Positions 6,983 to 61,293 of a stretch of 64,000 nt of DNA are shown one piece after another (position 1 is the first letter of the stretch; every line of letters begins with the position of its first letter). Location of the stretch: the NCBI RefSeq assembly GCF_000174415.1, contig NZ_ACJM01000006.1:1-64000 (forward strand). Direction: 5' to 3'. The notes beneath the pieces are model-generated. The model saw only the letters and a program-made list of their open reading frames with translations, was not told the DNA's origin and ran no database searches. The translations under genes and the position numbers were made by a program. Origin of the DNA: Dethiobacter alkaliphilus AHT 1 (GTDB lineage: Bacteria; Bacillota; Dethiobacteria; Dethiobacterales; Dethiobacteraceae).

Positions 6983-7714
6983 TTACTCCAGCTTGCGGAT
7001 TTCCTTTTGTAACCTTTTAATAATCCGTTTTTCCAGGCGGGAAATGTAGGACTGTGAGATGCCAAGCATCACCGCCACTTCTTTTTGCGTTTTCTCCTCC
7101 TGGCCCAACAGCCCGAAGCGCAATTCCATAATCCTTTTTTCCCGACGGTTTAGTTTTTCAATGGCGTTGTATAAAAGTTTGCGCTCCACTTCCGCTTCAA
7201 TACCTTTAATAACCAGGTCATTTTCCGTACCCAGCACATCGGAGAGCAGCAGCTCATTACCGTCCCAATCCACATTCAGCGGCTCATCAAAGGAAACTTC
7301 CGCCTTTACTTTATTATTCCTGCGTAAAAACATTAATATTTCATTTTCAATACATTTGGAAGCATAAGTGGCCAGCTTAATATTCTTGTGCGGGTCAAAT
7401 GTATTCACCGCTTTAATAAGTCCGATGGTTCCGATAGAAACCAGATCATCAATAAGAATACCGGTATTTTCAAACTTTCTGGCAATATAAACCACCAGGC
7501 GAAGATTGCGCTCAATCAAAACCGCCTTAACGGCATAATCCCCTGTTTTCAGTTTTTCCAGCAAAAACCCTTCCTCGTCCTGCGACAGCGGGGGAGGCAG
7601 TGTTTCCGAACTGCCAACATAATAGACTTCCGGCAGAAACTCTATCCCCAAACGCCGCATGGACCGGATGATAAGTAAACGCAGCCTCAACCTCCAGTGG
7701 GACAGTACCTTCAA
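6983..7714 (-). CDS. sigE: RNA polymerase mother-cell sigma factor SigE (pro-form)
   Basis: A 243-residue sigma factor with an amphipathic pro-sequence ([16 protein letters not shown]) that is removed by SpoIIGA to activate it. Region 2 ([19 protein letters not shown]) and the region 4 HTH ([20 protein letters not shown]) are clear. Translation begins at a TTG at 7714 that overlaps the TGA of spoIIGA, with GGAGG nine bases upstream, so protease and substrate are translationally coupled as in other spore formers. Confidence 0.95.
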
Positions 7715-8607
7715 ACACCCACACCTCCTATATTTTCTAAAACAGATGGATGAAGCAAAATTTCCGCGTCATTGTCCAAAGACAGCCCTTTGGCAGTGAT
7801 GGCAAAGGCCAACCCGGAAAGCTCGCCACATGTGGCTCCCTCCTCCACAGTCACCGCGTCGGGGCGAAAGGTAACCAGCATTCCCGAATTCTCCAGAGAG
7901 CGAAAAGGCACAACGCCAAACCTTTCCGCCTCATCGCCGGACAATTCACCTAAGGCACAGACCGGGTCTTCTCCTGCCAGATATGCCTCCTGCAAAGCCT
8001 GTGGCAAGAGGTCACGGATGGCACGGAAACTGGCCACATTGAGGGGACGGCCGGAAACCGGATCGCGCAATTGGTTTCCCGTATCCACCAGCGCCCGGGC
8101 GGTGGCCCGGCGGTTCCCGCTGCGAAGCGTCAGGCGGTAACGCAAACCTTTGTTACGCCGCTGCCGTTCACTGAAGTGCCAGACACCTACCATCAGGATA
8201 AATGCGATTAGTACACCGGTAAAGAGCATGCCGGGACGGGGCGGTGTGATATAAAACACTCCGCCCTGTACCACTGCCGGTGTACTGCCAAAAAAGTATA
8301 GTGCAAATACAGTTCCAGCCAAAAAAAATGATGCCAGAAAAAATGCTCCGCACAGCCTGAGCAGCTCCATGATTCGCCCGGGGCGGAAAGTAAAGGCCAC
8401 AATCAGCACACTGGCCACAACTTTTCCAACCCAGGAAAAGACAAAATAAGCCACCGGTAAAAATATTACCAGACTGTACAACGCCGCCAAAAACCCTCCC
8501 GACGCCAGTCGGAACATTTTCAGCTCCCTGCCTGTAAGACGTGCTGTCAGATAAAGCAGGGCTGTGTTCATCATAAAATTTAAGGCCAGGAGGTCTTCAA
8601 TATACAT
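7711..8607 (-). CDS. spoIIGA: Sigma-E processing peptidase SpoIIGA
   Basis: A 298-residue membrane protease. The N-terminal half has about five hydrophobic segments; the C-terminal half carries the aspartic-protease motif ALVDTGNQL (catalytic Asp of DTGN). It is activated across the septum by the forespore signal SpoIIR and cleaves pro-SigE. It overlaps sigE by four bases. The upstream region holds a perfect Spo0A box and a TATAAT -10 element. Confidence 0.95.
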
Positions 8608-8675: not shown

Positions 8676-8722
8676 ATTATACTAAACTACTCCTGTAAAA
8701 TTTGTCACAACCTTGTGTCGAA
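8676..8722 (-). promoter_or_regulatory. Spo0A-type promoter of spoIIGA-sigE
   Basis: On the minus strand the -10 TATAAT lies at 8681-8676. No good -35 is found at 17 bp; a TTGTGA is found about 23 bp upstream instead, and a perfect Spo0A box (TTCGACA, 8722-8716) lies just beyond. B. subtilis spoIIG has a similarly over-long spacer and is activated by Spo0A-P. One 7-mer can occur by chance, but its place and the spacing make it believable. Confidence 0.6.
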
Positions 8723-8752
8723 TCAAGATTTTCTGAAGGGGGGGGGAGACCC

Positions 8753-8782
8753 GTGGACAGAGGGACAGGTTTATTTGTCCAC
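8753..8782 (+). repeat. REP palindrome (nik side, left)
   Basis: A 30-bp imperfect palindrome: arms GTGGACA and TGTCCAC around GAGGGACAGGTTTATT. Same family as the copies at 59613, 60444 and 61264. It lies between the nik operon and the Spo0A-controlled spoIIGA promoter. Confidence 0.85.
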
Positions 8783-8862
8783 ACTTTATGTCAACCTAAG
8801 CAGGAATCTTCAGGTGTTTGCATCTCTCACTAAAAGAAGTGGGAGTCTTCTCCACTGGAATG

Positions 8863-8900
8863 AAAAAAGCGATGTCCGCTACTGACAGCAGACATCGCTT
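8863..8900 (-). terminator. Terminator of the nik operon, overlapping the nikE stop codon
   Basis: On the minus strand AGCGATGTC and GACATCGCT form a nine-base-pair stem followed by TTTTTT. The left arm encodes the last residues (SDV) of NikE and the stop codon is in the loop, so the hairpin and the coding end share bases. Confidence 0.85.
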
Positions 8901-9529
8901 GGATGGTGGTGTTTTGTTGAATGATCACGAAAAGCCTCCAGGTCGATAACCCGGCTGCATAAACGTTCCAGCAGGGTCTGTTCGTGGCTGACCACCAAAA
9001 CCCCCAGGTTTTGCTCTTTAACGGCGTCCAGCACCACATGCCAGATCTGCGCCTGGGTTATGGCATCAAGCATGGTGGTCATCTCATCGGCGATAAGAAA
9101 ACGGGTCTGGGGTCCAAGAGCCCGGGCCACGCAAAAGCGCTGCAGTTCACCGCCGGAGAGCTCTTTGGGCCAGCGGGTCAGCCAGTCCGGCTCAATCCCC
9201 AAAGGGGTGAGTACCTTTTGTTGGTACCACCTGTTTTCCCGCAGGGTGTATTCCATGCGCCACCGGTCATTTACCGCTTTCTCCGGATGCTGAAAGACCA
9301 GCTGCACCGGATTGTAGCCTTTTTTAGGCAGCGGTTTACCGTCAAGGGTCACACTGCCTTCCAATGGCGGCTCATACCCGGCCAGAACACGGGCCAGGGT
9401 GGTCTTTCCGCAGCCGCTGTGGCCGGATAAGCCCACCACTTCCCCTGGTTTTAGGGAGAGGGAGACACCCCGCAGGACCCAGGGGCCCTCGCCGTAGCGA
9501 AAGCCGATGTTTTTGGCTTCAAGTAGCAT
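8879..9529 (-). CDS. nikE: Nickel/peptide ABC importer ATP-binding protein, second subunit
   Basis: A 216-residue ATPase of the Opp/Dpp/Nik class. Walker A GHSGCGKTT, signature LSGGELQRF and Walker B FLIADEM are present. It lacks the C-terminal Cys-containing oligopeptide/dipeptide extension and instead ends in a short His/Cys-rich tail (STKHHHPSDVCCQ) that could bind metal. It overlaps nikD by 11 bases and is the last gene of the operon. Nickel as substrate is inferred from the NikR-type operators upstream of nikA, not from the ATPase itself. Confidence 0.8.
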   Translation of the reverse strand: MLLEAKNIGFRYGEGPWVLRGVSLSLKPGEVVGLSGHSGCGKTTLARVLAGYEPPLEGSVTLDGKPLPKKGYNPVQLVFQHPEKAVNDRWRMEYTLRENRWYQQKVLTPLGIEPDWLTRWPKELSGGELQRFCVARALGPQTRFLIADEMTTMLDAITQAQIWHVVLDAVKEQNLGVLVVSHEQTLLERLCSRVIDLEAFRDHSTKHHHPSDVCCQ

Positions 9530-10538
9530 GGATACACCTCACATTCCCACCGCGCAGGAGACGTGCCGGAGGACGCTCTGCTTCACACTCCGGTGTTTTA
9601 TGTTCGCAGCGGGGAGCAAACAAACATCCTGAAGGCAGGTTGCCCGGAGTGGGTTGGAAACCGGCAATGGGTTTGAAATCATTTTGCGGCAGTGCCTGCC
9701 ACAGTGCTTTACTGTAAGGGTGGCGCAGCGCCTGGCCTTTACCGTAAAAGTCAACAGACGGTGCTGTCTCCACCGTACTGCCGGCATAAAAAACGGCAAT
9801 ACGGTCAGCCATCTGCAAAGCAGAGGTGATGTCATGGGTAATAAGCATCACCGCACAACCCTCGTCTGCTAATTGACGCAAATGCCCCAAAGCTTCAGCC
9901 ACCACCGCCGGATGCAGGCCCGGGGTGGGCTCATCAGCTATTACCAGTCGGGCACCGCTGACCACGGCGGTGGAAACCAGCACACGGCGTGCCATACCTC
10001 CGGAGAGTTGGAAGGGATACAAATCCTCTACTTTTTTCTCCAGGCCATAGCGGGCAAATACCTGGCGTACAATTGCATTTTTATCGCCGTTGTGCACAGA
10101 GATACCCACCTGCGGGCCTACCCGCATTAAGGGATCAAGGTAGTTTACAGACTGCGGGATGATGGCTATTTCCCGGCCGCGCAGCTTGGCCTGGCGCCTG
10201 GGAGTTAAAGCTTCACCTCCGTAGTGCATGGTGCCGCTTACTTTGGCGTTTTTGGGCAGGATACCAAGGATGGCATGGGCCAGCAGGCTCTTGCCCGAAC
10301 CGCTGGAGCCTACCACTGCCAGCACCTCTCCCTTTTTTATGGACACATCCAGTCCGCTGATTACTTTCAGGTTTGTCTGGCGCAGGCCCCCGGCATACTG
10401 CACAAATGATACGGAAAGGTCCTTTACCTCCAGGACCGGTTTATCCCCGGCGGTGGAGGCGCCAGCAAAAACCTCTTCCTTGTCAGCAAATTCCGGCGCT
10501 CTTTTTTTCAGGGGTAAGGCGGGGCTCATCTGATGCAC
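9519..10538 (-). CDS. nikD: Nickel/peptide ABC importer ATP-binding protein, first subunit
   Basis: A 339-residue DppD/OppD-like ATPase. It has Walker A GSSGSGKSLL, signature LSGGMARR and Walker B LVIADEPTPG, then the C-terminal oligopeptide-transport extension with CLFAPRCEHKTPEC, a Cys motif common in this class that binds an iron-sulfur cluster in some members. The first 25 residues (PALPLKKRAPEFADKEE) are an unusual extension. Together with nikE it would form a heterodimeric motor for the NikBC pore. Confidence 0.8.
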   Translation of the reverse strand: MHQMSPALPLKKRAPEFADKEEVFAGASTAGDKPVLEVKDLSVSFVQYAGGLRQTNLKVISGLDVSIKKGEVLAVVGSSGSGKSLLAHAILGILPKNAKVSGTMHYGGEALTPRRQAKLRGREIAIIPQSVNYLDPLMRVGPQVGISVHNGDKNAIVRQVFARYGLEKKVEDLYPFQLSGGMARRVLVSTAVVSGARLVIADEPTPGLHPAVVAEALGHLRQLADEGCAVMLITHDITSALQMADRIAVFYAGSTVETAPSVDFYGKGQALRHPYSKALWQALPQNDFKPIAGFQPTPGNLPSGCLFAPRCEHKTPECEAERPPARLLRGGNVRCIHAT

Positions 10539-10550
10539 TCCCTTCTTGCT

Positions 10551-11417
10551 TTATTCATGCGCACTGTGCGGATCAACCAGCATCCGCAAATTGTCGCCTA
10601 AAATATCAAAGATACGCACCATTATCAACAGGGCAAGCCCTGGGAAAAAAGCCAACCACCACATACCGGTGGATAAATAACGCATGGATTCTGAGAGAAT
10701 CACGCCAATGGCCGGCTGATGCGGTGAGAGGCCAAAGCCCAAAAAAGTAACGGCGGCCTCATGAAGCACGGCGTGGGGAAACAGTAAAATCATCCCCACA
10801 AAGAACTGGGGTACTAAATGGGGAAGAATATGGCGGGTGGCTATCCACCAACGGGAACGCCCCAAGCTGCCGGATACCTGCACAAATTCAGCAGAGCGGA
10901 TCTGCATCACCTCGGCCCGGATTACCCTGGTTAAGCTGGGCCAGTGTGTTAGCGCCACCCCGATAATAACTCCCCGGGCCCCTCCTCCCAAAGCAAAGGA
11001 AATGAGAATGAGAGCCACCAGATGGGGGACGCCGAGAAACAGGTCCACAAGCCAGGTAACAGCAGCATCCACCACTTTACCCAGCGTAGCCGAAGCCATA
11101 CCCAACACCAGGGCGATTAAAACACTGACCGATGTGGCCAGCATTCCTACCCCCATGCTAAGCATCAGCCCTTTAATGGTGCGGGTAAACATATCCCGCC
11201 CCATCCAGTCTGTACCGAACGGGTGGCTAAGGGAAGGGGCTAAATTACGGGCATCAAAGTTTGTGGCCAGGCCCACATCACTTATAAGAAAGCCTCCGGC
11301 CACAATGGCCAGCAAAAAGGAGGCGGCAAAGCCGGTCACCAAAAGAGTGCGCTGCCGACGGTTCATACTGGGCCTTACCCGTTTTATGTTTGTTCTCAGC
11401 ACATGTATGGCACTCAT
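10551..11417 (-). CDS. nikC: Nickel/peptide ABC importer permease C
   Basis: A 288-residue DppC/NikC-type permease. The N-terminal membrane segment is followed by the family motif HPFGTDWMGRDMFTR and the EAA loop (EVMQIRSAEFVQVSGSLGRS), which contacts the ATPases. About six membrane segments are seen. The gene overlaps nikB by four bases, as expected for a stoichiometric pore pair. Confidence 0.82.
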   Translation of the reverse strand: MSAIHVLRTNIKRVRPSMNRRQRTLLVTGFAASFLLAIVAGGFLISDVGLATNFDARNLAPSLSHPFGTDWMGRDMFTRTIKGLMLSMGVGMLATSVSVLIALVLGMASATLGKVVDAAVTWLVDLFLGVPHLVALILISFALGGGARGVIIGVALTHWPSLTRVIRAEVMQIRSAEFVQVSGSLGRSRWWIATRHILPHLVPQFFVGMILLFPHAVLHEAAVTFLGFGLSPHQPAIGVILSESMRYLSTGMWWLAFFPGLALLIMVRIFDILGDNLRMLVDPHSAHE

Positions 11418-12409
11418 GCAGACCCTCCTCTTAGCCGGATTCGCGGATCAACCACCTGATAGAGCAAATCGGCCACTAAATTACCGGTGAAGACAAACAA
11501 GGCGGAGAAGATCACAATACCTAACAGCAGCGGCACATCTCCACGCAAACCTGCTTCCACCGTGGCCTGCCCCAGTCCGGGATAAGAAAATACCTGCTCT
11601 GCTAAAACAGAGCCGCCAAACAGCTCACTAAAAACTGCAAATTGCAGTGTAATTGCCGGCAAAGCCACATTCCTCAAACCGTGCCGCCATAAAAGGCCCA
11701 TGCTGCCCTCTCCCCGGGCCCGGGCAAAAAGCACATAGTCACTGGAGAGAACATCCACCATTTTCTGTCTGGTATGCAGCGCCAGATTGGCCACGCCAAA
11801 GAGACTTAAGGTCAGTGCAGGCAAGATCAAATGATACAGCCTGTTTGCCAGGGTGACCTGTTCTGCCAGCACCCCGGCGGGCACACCCAGGCCCACCGGA
11901 AACCAGCCCAAGTTAACAGCAAAAATTATCAGAAACAAAAGCCCAAGCCAAAATGTGGGCGTGGAGGCCAGTGTGAGACAGTACCACTTGATAATTTTAT
12001 CTATCCAGGTACCCTGTTTCATGGCAGCCCAAATTCCCAAGGCAAAGCCCAGTATACCCGAGAGGATCCAGGCCACACCCATTAACATCATGGAGGCAAA
12101 GAACCTCTCCCGGATCACATCCACCACCGGGCGGCGAAAAATCATGGAGGTGCCCAGATCACCCCGCATCACAGCCTGGGCCCAGCGGCCAAACTGAACC
12201 AGGGGCGGTTGATCCAGTCCCCAGTATTCCACAATTTGCGCCTGCTGCTCCGGCCCGACCCGCATCATATCGGCACCCACATAGGCGCGGACCGGATCAA
12301 CCGGCGAATAGTGAACAAGCAGAAACGATAGTACGCACAGAGCGGTAAGAAGTGTGAGAAACTTTATTCCTTTGTAGGCAAAAAACTTAAGCAGTTTTTT
12401 AGTACGCAA
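11414..12409 (-). CDS. nikB: Nickel/peptide ABC importer permease B
   Basis: A 331-residue DppB/NikB-type permease with an N-terminal membrane segment, the family motif DPVRAYVGADMM after it, and the EAA loop (SSDYVLFARARGEG) in the C-terminal part. It follows the binding-protein gene by 18 bases. Length and topology are normal for the family. Confidence 0.82.
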   Translation of the reverse strand: MRTKKLLKFFAYKGIKFLTLLTALCVLSFLLVHYSPVDPVRAYVGADMMRVGPEQQAQIVEYWGLDQPPLVQFGRWAQAVMRGDLGTSMIFRRPVVDVIRERFFASMMLMGVAWILSGILGFALGIWAAMKQGTWIDKIIKWYCLTLASTPTFWLGLLFLIIFAVNLGWFPVGLGVPAGVLAEQVTLANRLYHLILPALTLSLFGVANLALHTRQKMVDVLSSDYVLFARARGEGSMGLLWRHGLRNVALPAITLQFAVFSELFGGSVLAEQVFSYPGLGQATVEAGLRGDVPLLLGIVIFSALFVFTGNLVADLLYQVVDPRIRLRGGSA

Positions 12410-12427
12410 TTGTATTGCCCCTTTGAC

Positions 12428-14029
12428 TTAGTCGTCCCAGCGCCAGTCCACAATATTGTCGGTTACAGGCCAGCCGTGCCCGTGAGGGTGAATACGCTGC
12501 CGGCCGATATTTAGGCCCTCGCGGACCAAGTAGGTATGCTGCAGGTTAACAAGCCAGGCCCAGGGAGCATCGCCTAAGGCGCTTAAGCCGGTTTCCCCGT
12601 CCCACTGTGCCAACTGCCAGTAATTCATAGCTTCTTCCACAGTGGTGGCAGCCAGAGCCAACTCCATATACTCATCAACCTTTTCGTTACTGTAATAACC
12701 GGTGTTATACCAGCCAATCCCTGCGGTTTGGCTGCTGTAGAGATTGTAAAGCTCCTGCGGGTCATGGCTGCCCCAGCCAAACATTACCGCATTGGAGTAC
12801 ATATTGGCCTGAATCTCATCCCAACTTTTACCTTCCACTATAATATTGATGCCCAAAGGCTTTAACATATCGGCCACAGCAATGGCAAGAGACTGGCGAA
12901 CCTGGTCAGAGGCGGGATAATACAGGCTAAACTCAGCTGTCAGTTCCCCTTTTTGCCAGATTCCGTCCACTTCAGTCCAGCCGCCCTCTTCCAGGATGTC
13001 CCGCGCCGCGTCAAAATCTCCGTCGGCAAACACAGTGTCCGGATTCCACCAGGGCATACCGTCACTGGCCGAATAGGCCGGTGTGCCAAAACCGTTTAAT
13101 ACGCCATCCACCAAAGCCTGCCGGTCCACCGCCACATTGATGGCCTGGCGCAGGGCTAAATCCGCAGTCACATCATTGCCCACAGGATACCCGTCATCGG
13201 TCTGGCCGCCCGCTTCCACAAAGGGAAACATGATGCCACGGTTATCAATACTTTCGATGGCCTTCAGGCTCATACCTGTCACATTCTGCTGTGCTAAGGC
13301 AGCGGGAACAGCAACCAGGTCCAAATCGCCCGCATTGGCGGCAGCAAAAGCGCCATCTTCAGACAAAAACAGGAATGTAATCTTTTGGAAATAAGGCTTT
13401 TGTCCATAATACTCCGGGTTGGCCTCCACAATCAGCTGCTGCCCGCGGTCCCACTGCACAAATTTATAGGGCCCGGACCCCACCGGGTCTTCAGCATATC
13501 CGGCACCGTGTGCGTGCGCCGGCACAATTCCTGTGGTAATCAGGTTATTAATAAAGGTAGACTGGGGGCGCGTCAAAGTAAATTCCACCGTTGTCTCATC
13601 AAGCGCCACCGCATCTGAAAGGACATTTAAGTCCACCACCGAGCCGCTCTCTTTGGCGGTCAGGAAGGTATAAACCACATCATCGGCAGTTAGCGGCTCC
13701 CCATCGGAGAACACCACATCATCCCGAATACTTACAGTCCACACCAGCCCATCCTCACTAACTTCATAATCTGTTGCCAGGTCGTTTTCCACGTTTAAAT
13801 CATCATCACGACGCAAAAGGGTGCTTTGAAACAGCGGGGAGCCGTAACGCCCCCACCCAATAGTGGGATCAAAACCATCATCCGGTTCACCGCCAATAGC
13901 TAACACCAACTGGTCACTCTGCTCAAATTCAGCATCGGCGCCATTATTCTGCGGCTGCCCACACCCGGATGCCACCAAAGCAACCAAAACAACCAACAAC
14001 ACCAGTACAAACCCTCGTCTTTTCAACAT
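12428..14029 (-). CDS. nikA: Nickel/peptide ABC importer substrate-binding lipoprotein
   Basis: A 533-residue SBP_bac_5 (cluster C) binding protein. It has a signal peptide ending in a lipobox (VASGC, lipidated Cys23), an acidic mature N-terminus, and typical family segments such as GEPLTADDVVYTF, VGSGPYKFVQWD and LRQAINVAVDRQALV. Family members bind oligopeptides, nickel-chelate or other ligands and sequence alone does not decide. The two NikR-type palindromes upstream argue for nickel. The closing DNIVDWRWDD and preceding HPHGH run are His/Asp-rich. Confidence 0.8.
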   Translation of the reverse strand: MLKRRGFVLVLLVVLVALVASGCGQPQNNGADAEFEQSDQLVLAIGGEPDDGFDPTIGWGRYGSPLFQSTLLRRDDDLNVENDLATDYEVSEDGLVWTVSIRDDVVFSDGEPLTADDVVYTFLTAKESGSVVDLNVLSDAVALDETTVEFTLTRPQSTFINNLITTGIVPAHAHGAGYAEDPVGSGPYKFVQWDRGQQLIVEANPEYYGQKPYFQKITFLFLSEDGAFAAANAGDLDLVAVPAALAQQNVTGMSLKAIESIDNRGIMFPFVEAGGQTDDGYPVGNDVTADLALRQAINVAVDRQALVDGVLNGFGTPAYSASDGMPWWNPDTVFADGDFDAARDILEEGGWTEVDGIWQKGELTAEFSLYYPASDQVRQSLAIAVADMLKPLGINIIVEGKSWDEIQANMYSNAVMFGWGSHDPQELYNLYSSQTAGIGWYNTGYYSNEKVDEYMELALAATTVEEAMNYWQLAQWDGETGLSALGDAPWAWLVNLQHTYLVREGLNIGRQRIHPHGHGWPVTDNIVDWRWDD

Positions 14030-14051
14030 GTTGTCCCTCTCCTCCGCCCAA

Positions 14052-14078
14052 GTGTTACTATTTATCTATTAGTAACAC
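14052..14078 (-). promoter_or_regulatory. NikR-type operator 1 upstream of nikA
   Basis: GTGTTAC-N13-GTAACAC, a perfect inverted repeat; counting the adjacent TA the arms extend to nine bases. It starts 23 bp upstream of the nikA ATG. The pattern matches the GTGTTAC-N13/14-GTAACAC form I recall for NikR sites in Desulfovibrio. It overlaps a possible promoter (TTGCCA, 17 bp, GATAAA, minus strand), where a repressor would block initiation. Confidence 0.8.
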
Positions 14079-14098
14079 AGCAATGGCAAAAATAAATC

Positions 14099-14125
14099 GT
14101 ATTACCAATATTTTTTCGGTAACAC
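14099..14125 (-). promoter_or_regulatory. NikR-type operator 2 upstream of nikA
   Basis: GTATTAC-N13-GTAACAC, one mismatch from operator 1 and with the same 13-bp spacer. The two palindrome centres are 47 bp apart. Having a second copy with identical geometry makes a chance origin unlikely. Confidence 0.75.
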
Positions 14126-14234
14126 TACCAGTTCTATAATTATTCGCTAACAGCCCCAAATATCCTTTTTAAAACTAAAAGTTTTACAATTTATTCGGTA
14201 CCGGGAAAATGGCATACTGAACTTACATTTTATG

Positions 14235-14283
14235 TATGGACAAATAAACCTGCCTGTCCTCGCAGAGGGTCCCTCTGTCCATA
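14235..14283 (-). repeat. REP palindrome (nik side, right), variant with insertion
   Basis: Arms TATGGACA and TGTCCATA. The inside reads AATAAACCTGCCTGTCC, then a 17-mer GTCCTCGCAGAGGGTCC, then CTC; the 17-mer recurs on the opposite strand at 31491-31507. The orientation is opposite to the copy at 8753, so the pair encloses the nik operon as inverted repeats. Confidence 0.75.
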
Positions 14284-14320
14284 AAAAAACCAGACAAAGG
14301 GTTCCTTTGTCTGGTTTTGG
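14284..14320 (-). terminator. Terminator of the dcw cluster after ftsZ
   Basis: ACCAGACAAAGG-GTT-CCTTTGTCTGGT forms a 12-base-pair stem with a T-run on the minus strand, ending 16 bases after the ftsZ stop codon. It directly abuts the REP copy at 14235-14283. Confidence 0.9.
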
Positions 14321-14335
14321 TTAATTTTGCTTAGC

Positions 14336-15388
14336 TTAGCTCCGTTTGCGGCGGAGAAAAGCGGGTATATCAAGGTCGTCGGAGGAGAAAGACTTTTGGG
14401 TGAGTTCTTCGATCATTTGCTTGCGCTCGGAGACCTGATGGTCGAAACCGGTGGCAATTACGGTGACGCGCACTTCATCCTGCAGAGCTTCGTCGATGAC
14501 CGCACCGAAGATGATATTGGCATCGGGGTCCGCCGCTTCGGCCACAATGTCGGCTGCTTCGTTTACCTCAAAGAGGCCCAGGTCGGATCCGCCGGTGATA
14601 TTTAAGAGCACGCCGCGGGCGCCGTCAATGGATGTTTCAAGAAGCGGGCTGGCAATGGCCGCTTTAGCCGCTTCCACGGTACGGTTGTCGCCGTTGCCCA
14701 CGCCAATTCCCATCAGCGCCGCACCGGTTTCCTTCATAATGGTCTTCACATCGGCAAAGTCCAGGTTAATAAGGCCCGGTACCGCAATCAAATCGGAAAT
14801 ACCCTGCACGCCCTGCCGGAGAACGTCATCGGCAATGCGAAACGCCTCCAGAATGGGAGTACGCTTTTCCACCACCTGCAGCAGGCGGTCATTGGGAATG
14901 GTAATTAAGGTATCCACTTTATCTTTTAGCTCAATAATGCCCTTGTCGGCAGAAGAGGAACGGCGCCGACCCTCAAAGGTGAACGGCTTGGTAACCACCC
15001 CCACGGTCAGGGCTCCCAGTTCCCGGGCAACTTCGGCAATAACCGGAGCGGCCCCGGTTCCCGTTCCGCCGCCCATGCCGGCGGTGACAAATACCATATC
15101 GGCGCCTTTTAGCGCCTGCATTATTTCGTCTCTGCTTTCTTCTGCTGCCTGATGTCCGATTTCCGGATTAGCACCGGCTCCCAGGCCTTTGGTCAGCTTT
15201 TCGCCGATTTGCAGCTTACATTCGGAGTCGGCCAAGTACAGGGCCTGTGCATCTGTATTTACGGATATAAATTCCACACCGCGCAGACCGGCGGCAATCA
15301 TGCGGTTAACGGCGTTACTGCCACCCCCGCCCACACCAATGACTTTTATCTGGGCAAATTGCTCCATCTCAATATCAAACTCGATCAC
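14336..15388 (-). CDS. ftsZ: Cell division tubulin FtsZ
   Basis: A 350-residue GTPase that forms the division ring. The tubulin signature [19 protein letters not shown], the N-terminal [13 protein letters not shown], and the conserved C-terminal peptide [12 protein letters not shown] that binds FtsA/SepF/ZapA partners are all visible. The variable linker is short, about 20 residues. It follows ftsA by 26 bases and is the last gene of the dcw cluster. Confidence 0.98.
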
Positions 15389-31479: not shown

Positions 31480-31586
31480 GTGGGACACGGGGACCCTCTG
31501 CGAGGACGGACCATAAATTGCATTACTGCAAAAAAAGGTCCGTCCCCAAATTGCACTGCAAAAAAAGGTCCGTCCCCAAATTGCAC
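31480..31586. repeat. REP-related block with two exact 30-bp tandem repeats
   Basis: Starts with GTGGGACACGGGGACC and the 17-mer shared with the REP copy at 14235. Then a 30-bp unit (CTGCAAAAAAAGGTCCGTCC followed by CCAAATTGCA) occurs twice in tandem, 31526-31555 and 31556-31585, after the tail of a degenerate third copy. A related word is found in the hisS leader (38922-38945). It lies between mraZ and the zinc-ribbon gene. No unique spacers are present. Confidence 0.75.
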
Positions 31587-59612: not shown

Positions 59613-59650
59613 ATTTGTGGACAGAGGGACAGGTTTATCTGTCCACAAAT
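59613..59650 (+). repeat. REP palindrome flanking the RAYT gene (3' side)
   Basis: The longest copy: 11-base arms ATTTGTGGACA and TGTCCACAAAT around GAGGGACAGGTTTATC. It lies five bases from the end of the transposase gene and is inverted with respect to the copy at 60444. Confidence 0.88.
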
Positions 59651-59655
59651 GTGCT

Positions 59656-60411
59656 CTATATTTTACTTAACAAACTTTTTGAGAGTCCGGTTACTCTTGC
59701 AAGTTGCCGCAAAGGTACGTCAACTACAGCTTTGATTCTTTTAATAGTGGCATTCCTTTGGCACTTATCCATTTTTTTAATTTCACGTGCGCATACACCA
59801 ATTATCCCTTCGATGATCTCTTTTACTTCATCGTCCGAAATTGAAGGCTTATCTTCATACTCCAGACATTCATCTTCGTTAGGTGTATTTACATATTCTT
59901 TAAATGATTCAAAAGAGTTATAGCCAGACTCTGCAAACAGGTTTAACGAATAGCTTCCTGTTAAAGTAGAGGCCCTCACATATTCGTTGTAGCTACTCCA
60001 ACGGTATTCTGACACAAGTTTCACCATGCCTGCTTTTACAGGATTACGTAGGATATAGCGAAATACCGTGAGAAAATAGCGATTACTCTCTACAGGTTCG
60101 CTTCTGAATCTTTCCTGAAACAAATGCCCAATTCTCCCGTGCCTTTTGTTAAAATAGAGCACATAACTGCCACATATTCTTTTTATTATTGTTGCCAGCG
60201 GCTCGTCATTAACCTTAAGCAAAATATGGATATGGTTGTCCATGAGACAATAACAAAGAATTTCACACCCACTAACCTTCTCGATATACTTTAAAATCTT
60301 CAGAAATTGTCGCCTATCTTCATCATCAATAAATACAGCCTCACGATTTACTCCACGCAAGATGATGTGATAAAGTCCAGTTGAGCTCAATTTACGTGCT
60401 GTTCTGGGCAT
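59656..60411 (-). CDS. REP-associated tyrosine transposase (RAYT, Y1_Tnp/TnpA_REP)
   Basis: A 251-residue HUH-family single-strand transposase. The HUH pair is His60/His62 in MDNHIHILLK, and the likely nucleophile is Tyr119 in FRYILRNPVKAGM; IGHLFQERFRSEPV is a further family mark. A C-terminal HTH (VPLRQLARVTGLSKSLLSKI) is typical of Firmicutes members. RAYTs are thought to mobilise REP palindromes. This one is flanked on both sides by inverted REPs, and similar palindromes occur at several other places in the window. A LexA box lies in a promoter upstream. Confidence 0.9.
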   Translation of the reverse strand: MPRTARKLSSTGLYHIILRGVNREAVFIDDEDRRQFLKILKYIEKVSGCEILCYCLMDNHIHILLKVNDEPLATIIKRICGSYVLYFNKRHGRIGHLFQERFRSEPVESNRYFLTVFRYILRNPVKAGMVKLVSEYRWSSYNEYVRASTLTGSYSLNLFAESGYNSFESFKEYVNTPNEDECLEYEDKPSISDDEVKEIIEGIIGVCAREIKKMDKCQRNATIKRIKAVVDVPLRQLARVTGLSKSLLSKI

Positions 60412-60443: not shown

Positions 60444-60473
60444 GTGGACAATTAAACCTGTCCCTCTGTCCAC
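60444..60473 (-). repeat. REP palindrome flanking the RAYT gene (5' side)
   Basis: Arms GTGGACA and TGTCCAC around ATTAAACCTGTCCCTC, the reverse orientation of the 59613 copy. It stands 33 bases upstream of the RAYT start codon. Confidence 0.88.
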
Positions 60474-61189: not shown

Positions 61190-61293
61190 GGAAATGACCT
61201 CCCTCTGTCTCAAATGGCGAGAATAGATGGGACAAATTGACCTGTCCCCTTTGTCTCGAAAACGTGGACAAAAAAACCTGTCCCTCTGTCCAC
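61190..61293 (-). repeat. REP array downstream of relA
   Basis: One clean copy at 61264-61293 (arms GTGGACA/TGTCCAC) starts two bases after the relA stop codon. Next to it are a diverged GGGACA-type copy (about 61228-61257, TGGGACAAATTGACCTGTCC) and a faint third (about 61194-61211, GACCTCCCTCTGTCTC). Quality falls with distance from relA. Confidence 0.7.

Follow-up and report, generated by a model that had tools for sequence, protein, structure and literature searches.

In Dethiobacter alkaliphilus AHT 1, a predicted nickel-importer (nik) operon separates ftsZ from spoIIGA, and comparison with relatives gives good support to its having been inserted or relocated there in this lineage. Our preferred reading, to which we assign a probability of about 0.78, is that the operon entered a permissive gap and that the REP elements now found at its two edges colonised the site independently. 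The window analysed here is a 64,000-nucleotide stretch of a genome of 34 contigs (3,112,004 bases). Its minus-strand ORFs run in the order ftsZ, a five-gene ABC importer, spoIIGA and then two sigma-factor genes, and the five-gene operon that the initial annotation placed between ftsZ and spoIIGA is found at 8879-14029. The features of this region are as follows.

7711..8607, minus strand: spoIIGA, the left neighbour (TIGR02854, 168.6 bits, E 1.9e-49; curated cut-off of 209.6 not reached)
8716..8722, minus strand: Spo0A-like box TTCGACA, an exact 7-mer 115 bp before the spoIIGA start
8751..8788, plus strand: left REP, canonical (family sequence model, 35.1 bits)
8867..8900, minus strand: terminator-like hairpin closing the operon and extending into the final codons of its last gene
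8879..9529, minus strand: ATPase subunit, yntE/nikE-like (PF00005; best NCBIfam match NikE, below cut-off)
9519..10538, minus strand: ATPase subunit, yntD/nikD-like (PF00005, PF08352)
10551..11417, minus strand: permease, yntC/nikC-like (PF00528; Opp2C 172.7 of 300 bits)
11414..12409, minus strand: permease, yntB/nikB-like (PF00528; Opp2B 239.4 of 350 bits)
12428..14029, minus strand: predicted nickel-binding lipoprotein, yntA/nikA-like (PF00496; profile match to 4ofl, YpYntA)
14052..14078, no strand assigned: NikR-type operator GTGTTAC-N13-GTAACAC, exact
14099..14125, no strand assigned: second NikR-type operator, exact on the degenerate pattern
14235..14283, minus strand: right REP, a variant interrupted by an insert, directly beyond the ftsZ terminator
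14286..14318, minus strand: ftsZ terminator-like hairpin (hairpin scan, given on the plus strand)
14336..15388, minus strand: ftsZ, the right neighbour (TIGR00065, E 1.7e-133, above cut-off)

The identity of spoIIGA is also backed by gene order, namely spoIIGA together with two sigma-factor genes. The 7-mer TTCGACA occurs three times in the window, which taken alone is no more than chance; an exact box lies 110-123 bp from the spoIIGA start in 9 of 14 same-family relatives. On the other side of the operon, the ftsZ hairpin is symmetric and its minus-strand copy is followed by seven T. The seams of the insert had been described as coinciding with the ftsZ terminator and the Spo0A promoter; this holds on the ftsZ side, where the right REP lies just past the terminator, but is approximate on the Spo0A side, where the box lies ~30 bp from the REP edge.

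We examined the ftsZ-spoIIGA interval in 38 relatives with both genes on one contig, 14 of them from the same family and the remainder including other families, with no genome of the same genus among them. The gap is free of nik in all 38, which supports the initial proposal that the operon was inserted or rearranged at this point. It measures 118-557 bp in 36 of these genomes, and the native flank left in the window (145 + 52 bp) is comparable with these empty gaps. The remaining two relatives have longer gaps: in G006 (1,034 bp; G006:C22) the gap carries one flavodoxin-fold gene, and in G036 (6,322 bp; G036:C217) it carries 6.3 kb of cargo with several genes, one of which we take, from its sequence, to be alanine racemase-like. 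Cargo has therefore entered repeatedly between the dcw cluster and the spoIIGA-sigma-factor block (3 of 39 genomes in which one contig has both genes, that of the window included), and it visibly breaks neither side. Orthologues of the solute-binding protein (SBP), with 63-69% identity, occur in seven other family members, always elsewhere (the G018 copy is a fragment), and their neighbours, where the context was read, are presumably gatB-like, argH-like or toxin-antitoxin-like genes, names that we assign from sequence. The flanks of 80 nik loci gave no match to ftsZ, spoIIGA or sigE, and a search of the open-licence literature found nothing joining spoIIGA, ftsZ and nickel. One relative has two spoIIGA copies (G016:C78 and G016:C59, 68% and 64% identity), which is perhaps a sign of contamination of that assembly.

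We hypothesize that the operon came, by transfer or by movement within the chromosome, into the interval that runs from the ftsZ terminator to the spoIIGA promoter. This gap may tolerate cargo since transcription terminates at one side and is initiated afresh at the other, an insulation that would make it permissive, and the operon would bring with it its own operators and promoter region as well as its own terminator. The REPs would have arrived separately, scattered through a RAYT-bearing genome at mostly intergenic positions, and this colonisation would have taken in both of the gaps created by the insertion.

The subunits of the operon are complete for an importer of the Ynt/Nik type, with an SBP, two permeases and two ATPases, and 78 of 81 homologous loci, mostly from Bacillota, have the same gene order as the window, the other three being incomplete. 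None of the five proteins reached the NCBIfam NikABCDE equivalog cut-offs (NikA 113.9/393, NikB 195.4/447, NikC 160.1/358.45, NikD 143.7/318.7 and NikE 124.1/332.55 bits), and these scores are so far below the cut-offs that the nickel label cannot rest on those models. We built a profile from seven family SBPs and searched it against solved structures; the first match was 3ry3, a putative solute-binding protein (572.4 bits, E 7e-171), closely followed by the nickel-binding YpYntA (4ofl; 571.9 bits, E 1e-170), and the third match scored 216.8. The YpYntA match, the two exact NikR-type operators and the presence of nikR in the genome lend support to the nickel label, and the operon is probably a NikR-controlled Ynt-type nickel importer. 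Ni-Fe hydrogenase genes are reported for AHT1 in an excerpt of PMC5609068. The imported nickel could supply this hydrogenase, and NikR loaded with nickel would shut the operon off.

GTGTTAC-N13/14-GTAACAC is given as the NikR consensus in part of PMC545781. The nikR gene of this genome scores above cut-off, so that both a NikR-type operator and a nikR gene, as expected of a NikR regulon, are present. A NikR-type operator with at most one mismatch also precedes all five of the family orthologues whose upstream sequence was examined. At the same threshold the whole genome holds a single further operator region, before a DUF4198 gene; the genome-wide count is not significant (4 found against 3 per strand in a backwards-pattern control), and the case therefore rests on the exactness, pairing and place of the operators. 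This second operator pair (G000:C1:74957-75028 and 76011-76126) precedes a gene that ends just short of an inverted REP pair, and the DUF4198 gene is likely a second nickel-regulated gene.

Whether the operon arrived by recent horizontal transfer or by movement of a resident copy is a sub-question compatible with our preferred reading. In the best trees the nik copies of the family do not form one clade (3 changes), as would be expected from transfer, but a single clade is not rejected (p-AU 0.072), and a five-protein tree, made by a quick method from 36 of 79 rows, groups the window copy with four family members and two others (support 88). Moreover, the comparison with neighbouring genes that had been suggested as a check found no difference in codon use or GC, and hence no sign of foreign origin in the operon. 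Transfer and relocation within the chromosome are thus both compatible with these trees, and recent transfer is a tentative reading, somewhat less likely than not.

The initial annotation was correct that a REP lies at each edge of the operon (8753-8782 and 14235-14283) in inverted orientation, the left on the plus and the right on the minus strand, and that this layout matches that around the RAYT gene. The right REP is a canonical REP split by a short insert, of which the sequence model sees only the tail (12.9 bits, E 0.0091 in the window), and the two edges have 16- and 13-base inverted matches in common. The 20-base core of the left REP has 36 copies in the genome at up to 2 mismatches (reversed-pattern control, 0), and the insert form is present 22 times when 3 mismatches are allowed (control, 0). 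The other REP features of the window used here are listed below.

59617-59646, plus strand, and 60444-60473, minus strand: inverted REPs flanking RAYT (sequence model)
59656..60411, minus strand: RAYT gene (Y1_Tnp, E 1e-16)
61229..61293, minus strand: two REPs between relA and dtd, an unbroken gap used as a control (sequence model)

In total, the REP-type elements of the genome number at least 99 and form 59 clusters (at least 77 by the model at E<=0.01, plus 22 insert variants), the model count being a lower bound from 150 scored among 1,778 first-look candidates. Neighbouring genes could be called for 55 of the 59 clusters, which fall into 33 co-directional, 16 convergent and 6 divergent gaps, a distribution that is usual for REPs according to an excerpt of PMC3733652. 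A 17-base REP core, allowing one mismatch, was absent from 18 of the 19 relatives searched, with one match in G003. These abundant, intergenic, imperfect palindromes and the RAYT gene between inverted copies are what is expected of a REP/RAYT system, and the RAYT gene is likely the mover of the REPs. REP orientation tended only weakly to follow the 3' end of the neighbouring gene (19 against 13 and 21 against 12, from 55 of 59 clusters after dropping uncovered or ORF-internal ones), and this rule was not used. The open-licence literature holds no paper on Dethiobacter with the term 'extragenic palindromic'. At 31525-31584 of the window, the 30-base unit ACTGCAAAAAAAGGTCCGTCCCCAAATTGC stands twice in exact tandem and perhaps represents another repeat family.

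The initial annotation went further and suggested insertion or rearrangement through the REPs, which would mean either that the segment travelled as a RAYT/REP unit or that REPs recombined with one another. In its favour, the REPs at both edges adjoin native sequence, the RAYT gene has the same layout, and close pairs are in excess: neighbouring REP pairs 0.4-5.6 kb apart number 12, against 5.4 expected for 59 random clusters (P 0.005), and 8 of the 12 face inwards (binomial 0.0028, noticed post hoc). This excess and inward bias are unaccounted for by a view of the REPs as pure colonists and count against our preferred reading, and yet the same excess means that one bracketed operon alone is unremarkable in this genome. 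We tested REP-mediated insertion in four ways, through synteny breaks, an unbroken REP gap, a second bracketed gene and repeats at nik elsewhere, and only the second bracketed gene was partly in favour. REPs are not enriched at synteny breaks: in 1.19 Mb compared with one relative of ~3.0 Mb (G002, crude ORF calls), 11 of 25 REP gaps are conserved versus 30 of 55 other gaps (Fisher P 0.47), with 4 nik and RAYT gaps included among the 14 REP breaks. The genes relA and dtd lie side by side in all 19 relative loci, despite the two REPs between them in the window. The other two cargo events in the ftsZ-spoIIGA gap have no bracketing repeats, as there is no long pair of inverted repeats around the G036 cargo and the flanks of the G006 cargo have only a 10-base inverted match. 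At nik loci elsewhere, those of five relatives showed no shared inverted repeat of 10 or more bases between their flanks (one has an 11-base direct match), and 87 nik-bearing loci gave no match to the REP core with up to 2 substitutions allowed. Finally, recombination between inverted repeats inverts a segment rather than inserting it. Taken together, these results make insertion through the REPs unlikely.

Somewhat less likely still is that inward REP pairs mark cassettes (nik, the radical SAM gene and RAYT) captured with the help of RAYT, which would make them a composite, cargo-carrying REP element. Three inward pairs with a usable comparison bracket genes that relatives lack or have in broken form (nik, RAYT and a radical SAM gene), and two bracket collinear segments (C4 and C13). 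G002 is collinear over the segment enclosed by the pair that flanks the DUF4349 and RNase H genes, and the genes around the C13 pair are likewise neighbours in that relative, so that genes can be bracketed by REPs and yet unmoved. Of 17 relative loci examined, 10 have both outer genes, and the radical SAM gene, on C3, is missing from 9 of these, a post hoc finding that also speaks for insertion through REPs. However, G002, which is without this REP core, keeps a 120-residue match at the place of the radical SAM gene, and this points to the gene having been present earlier than, or independently of, the REPs.

That the REPs came independently of the nickel operon, as our preferred reading has it, is what we infer from these comparisons, and REPs at a joint should not be read as its cause. 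A REP at the same spots in a relative without nik had been named as evidence against the initial proposal; this was seen in kind, though not to the letter, in G002, where another high-copy family of repeats (GGGGACGGTTCTCAAGTTGCAA, with 58 copies in that genome) is present three times in the ftsZ-spoIIGA gap without cargo (G002:C7:67897-68029). That nik stood between ftsZ and spoIIGA in the ancestor and was lost there in all relatives is very improbable; it would fit a single origin of the family copies, which the tree test does not reject, but no relative keeps nik there, other families included, and the orthologues lie at several different places. We give least credence to an assembly artefact joining segments at short repeats, as both joints do lie at repeats in a 34-contig draft, but these are shorter than 50 bp and AHT1 is an isolate with a three-platform assembly (PMC5609068, excerpt).

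The elements described here resemble REP/RAYT (REPtron) systems in being 30-base imperfect palindromes with many intergenic copies and a Y1 transposase gene between inverted REPs (excerpt of PMC2817692). They differ in that the REP begins with GTGG rather than GTAG, a start noted for one REP family in part of PMC3733652, and the excerpts of PMC2817692 and PMC3733652 do not describe such systems with a multi-gene cargo flanked by inverted REPs. The operon shares its subunit composition and putative NikR-type control with NikABCDE of E. coli, but its proteins all score far under the NCBIfam Nik cut-offs. It is like Yersinia YntABCDE, a distant Nik relative according to an excerpt of PMC2667541, in being a predicted five-gene ABC importer whose binding-protein profile matches 4ofl, and differs from it in lineage, in its NikR-type operators and in its position beside ftsZ.
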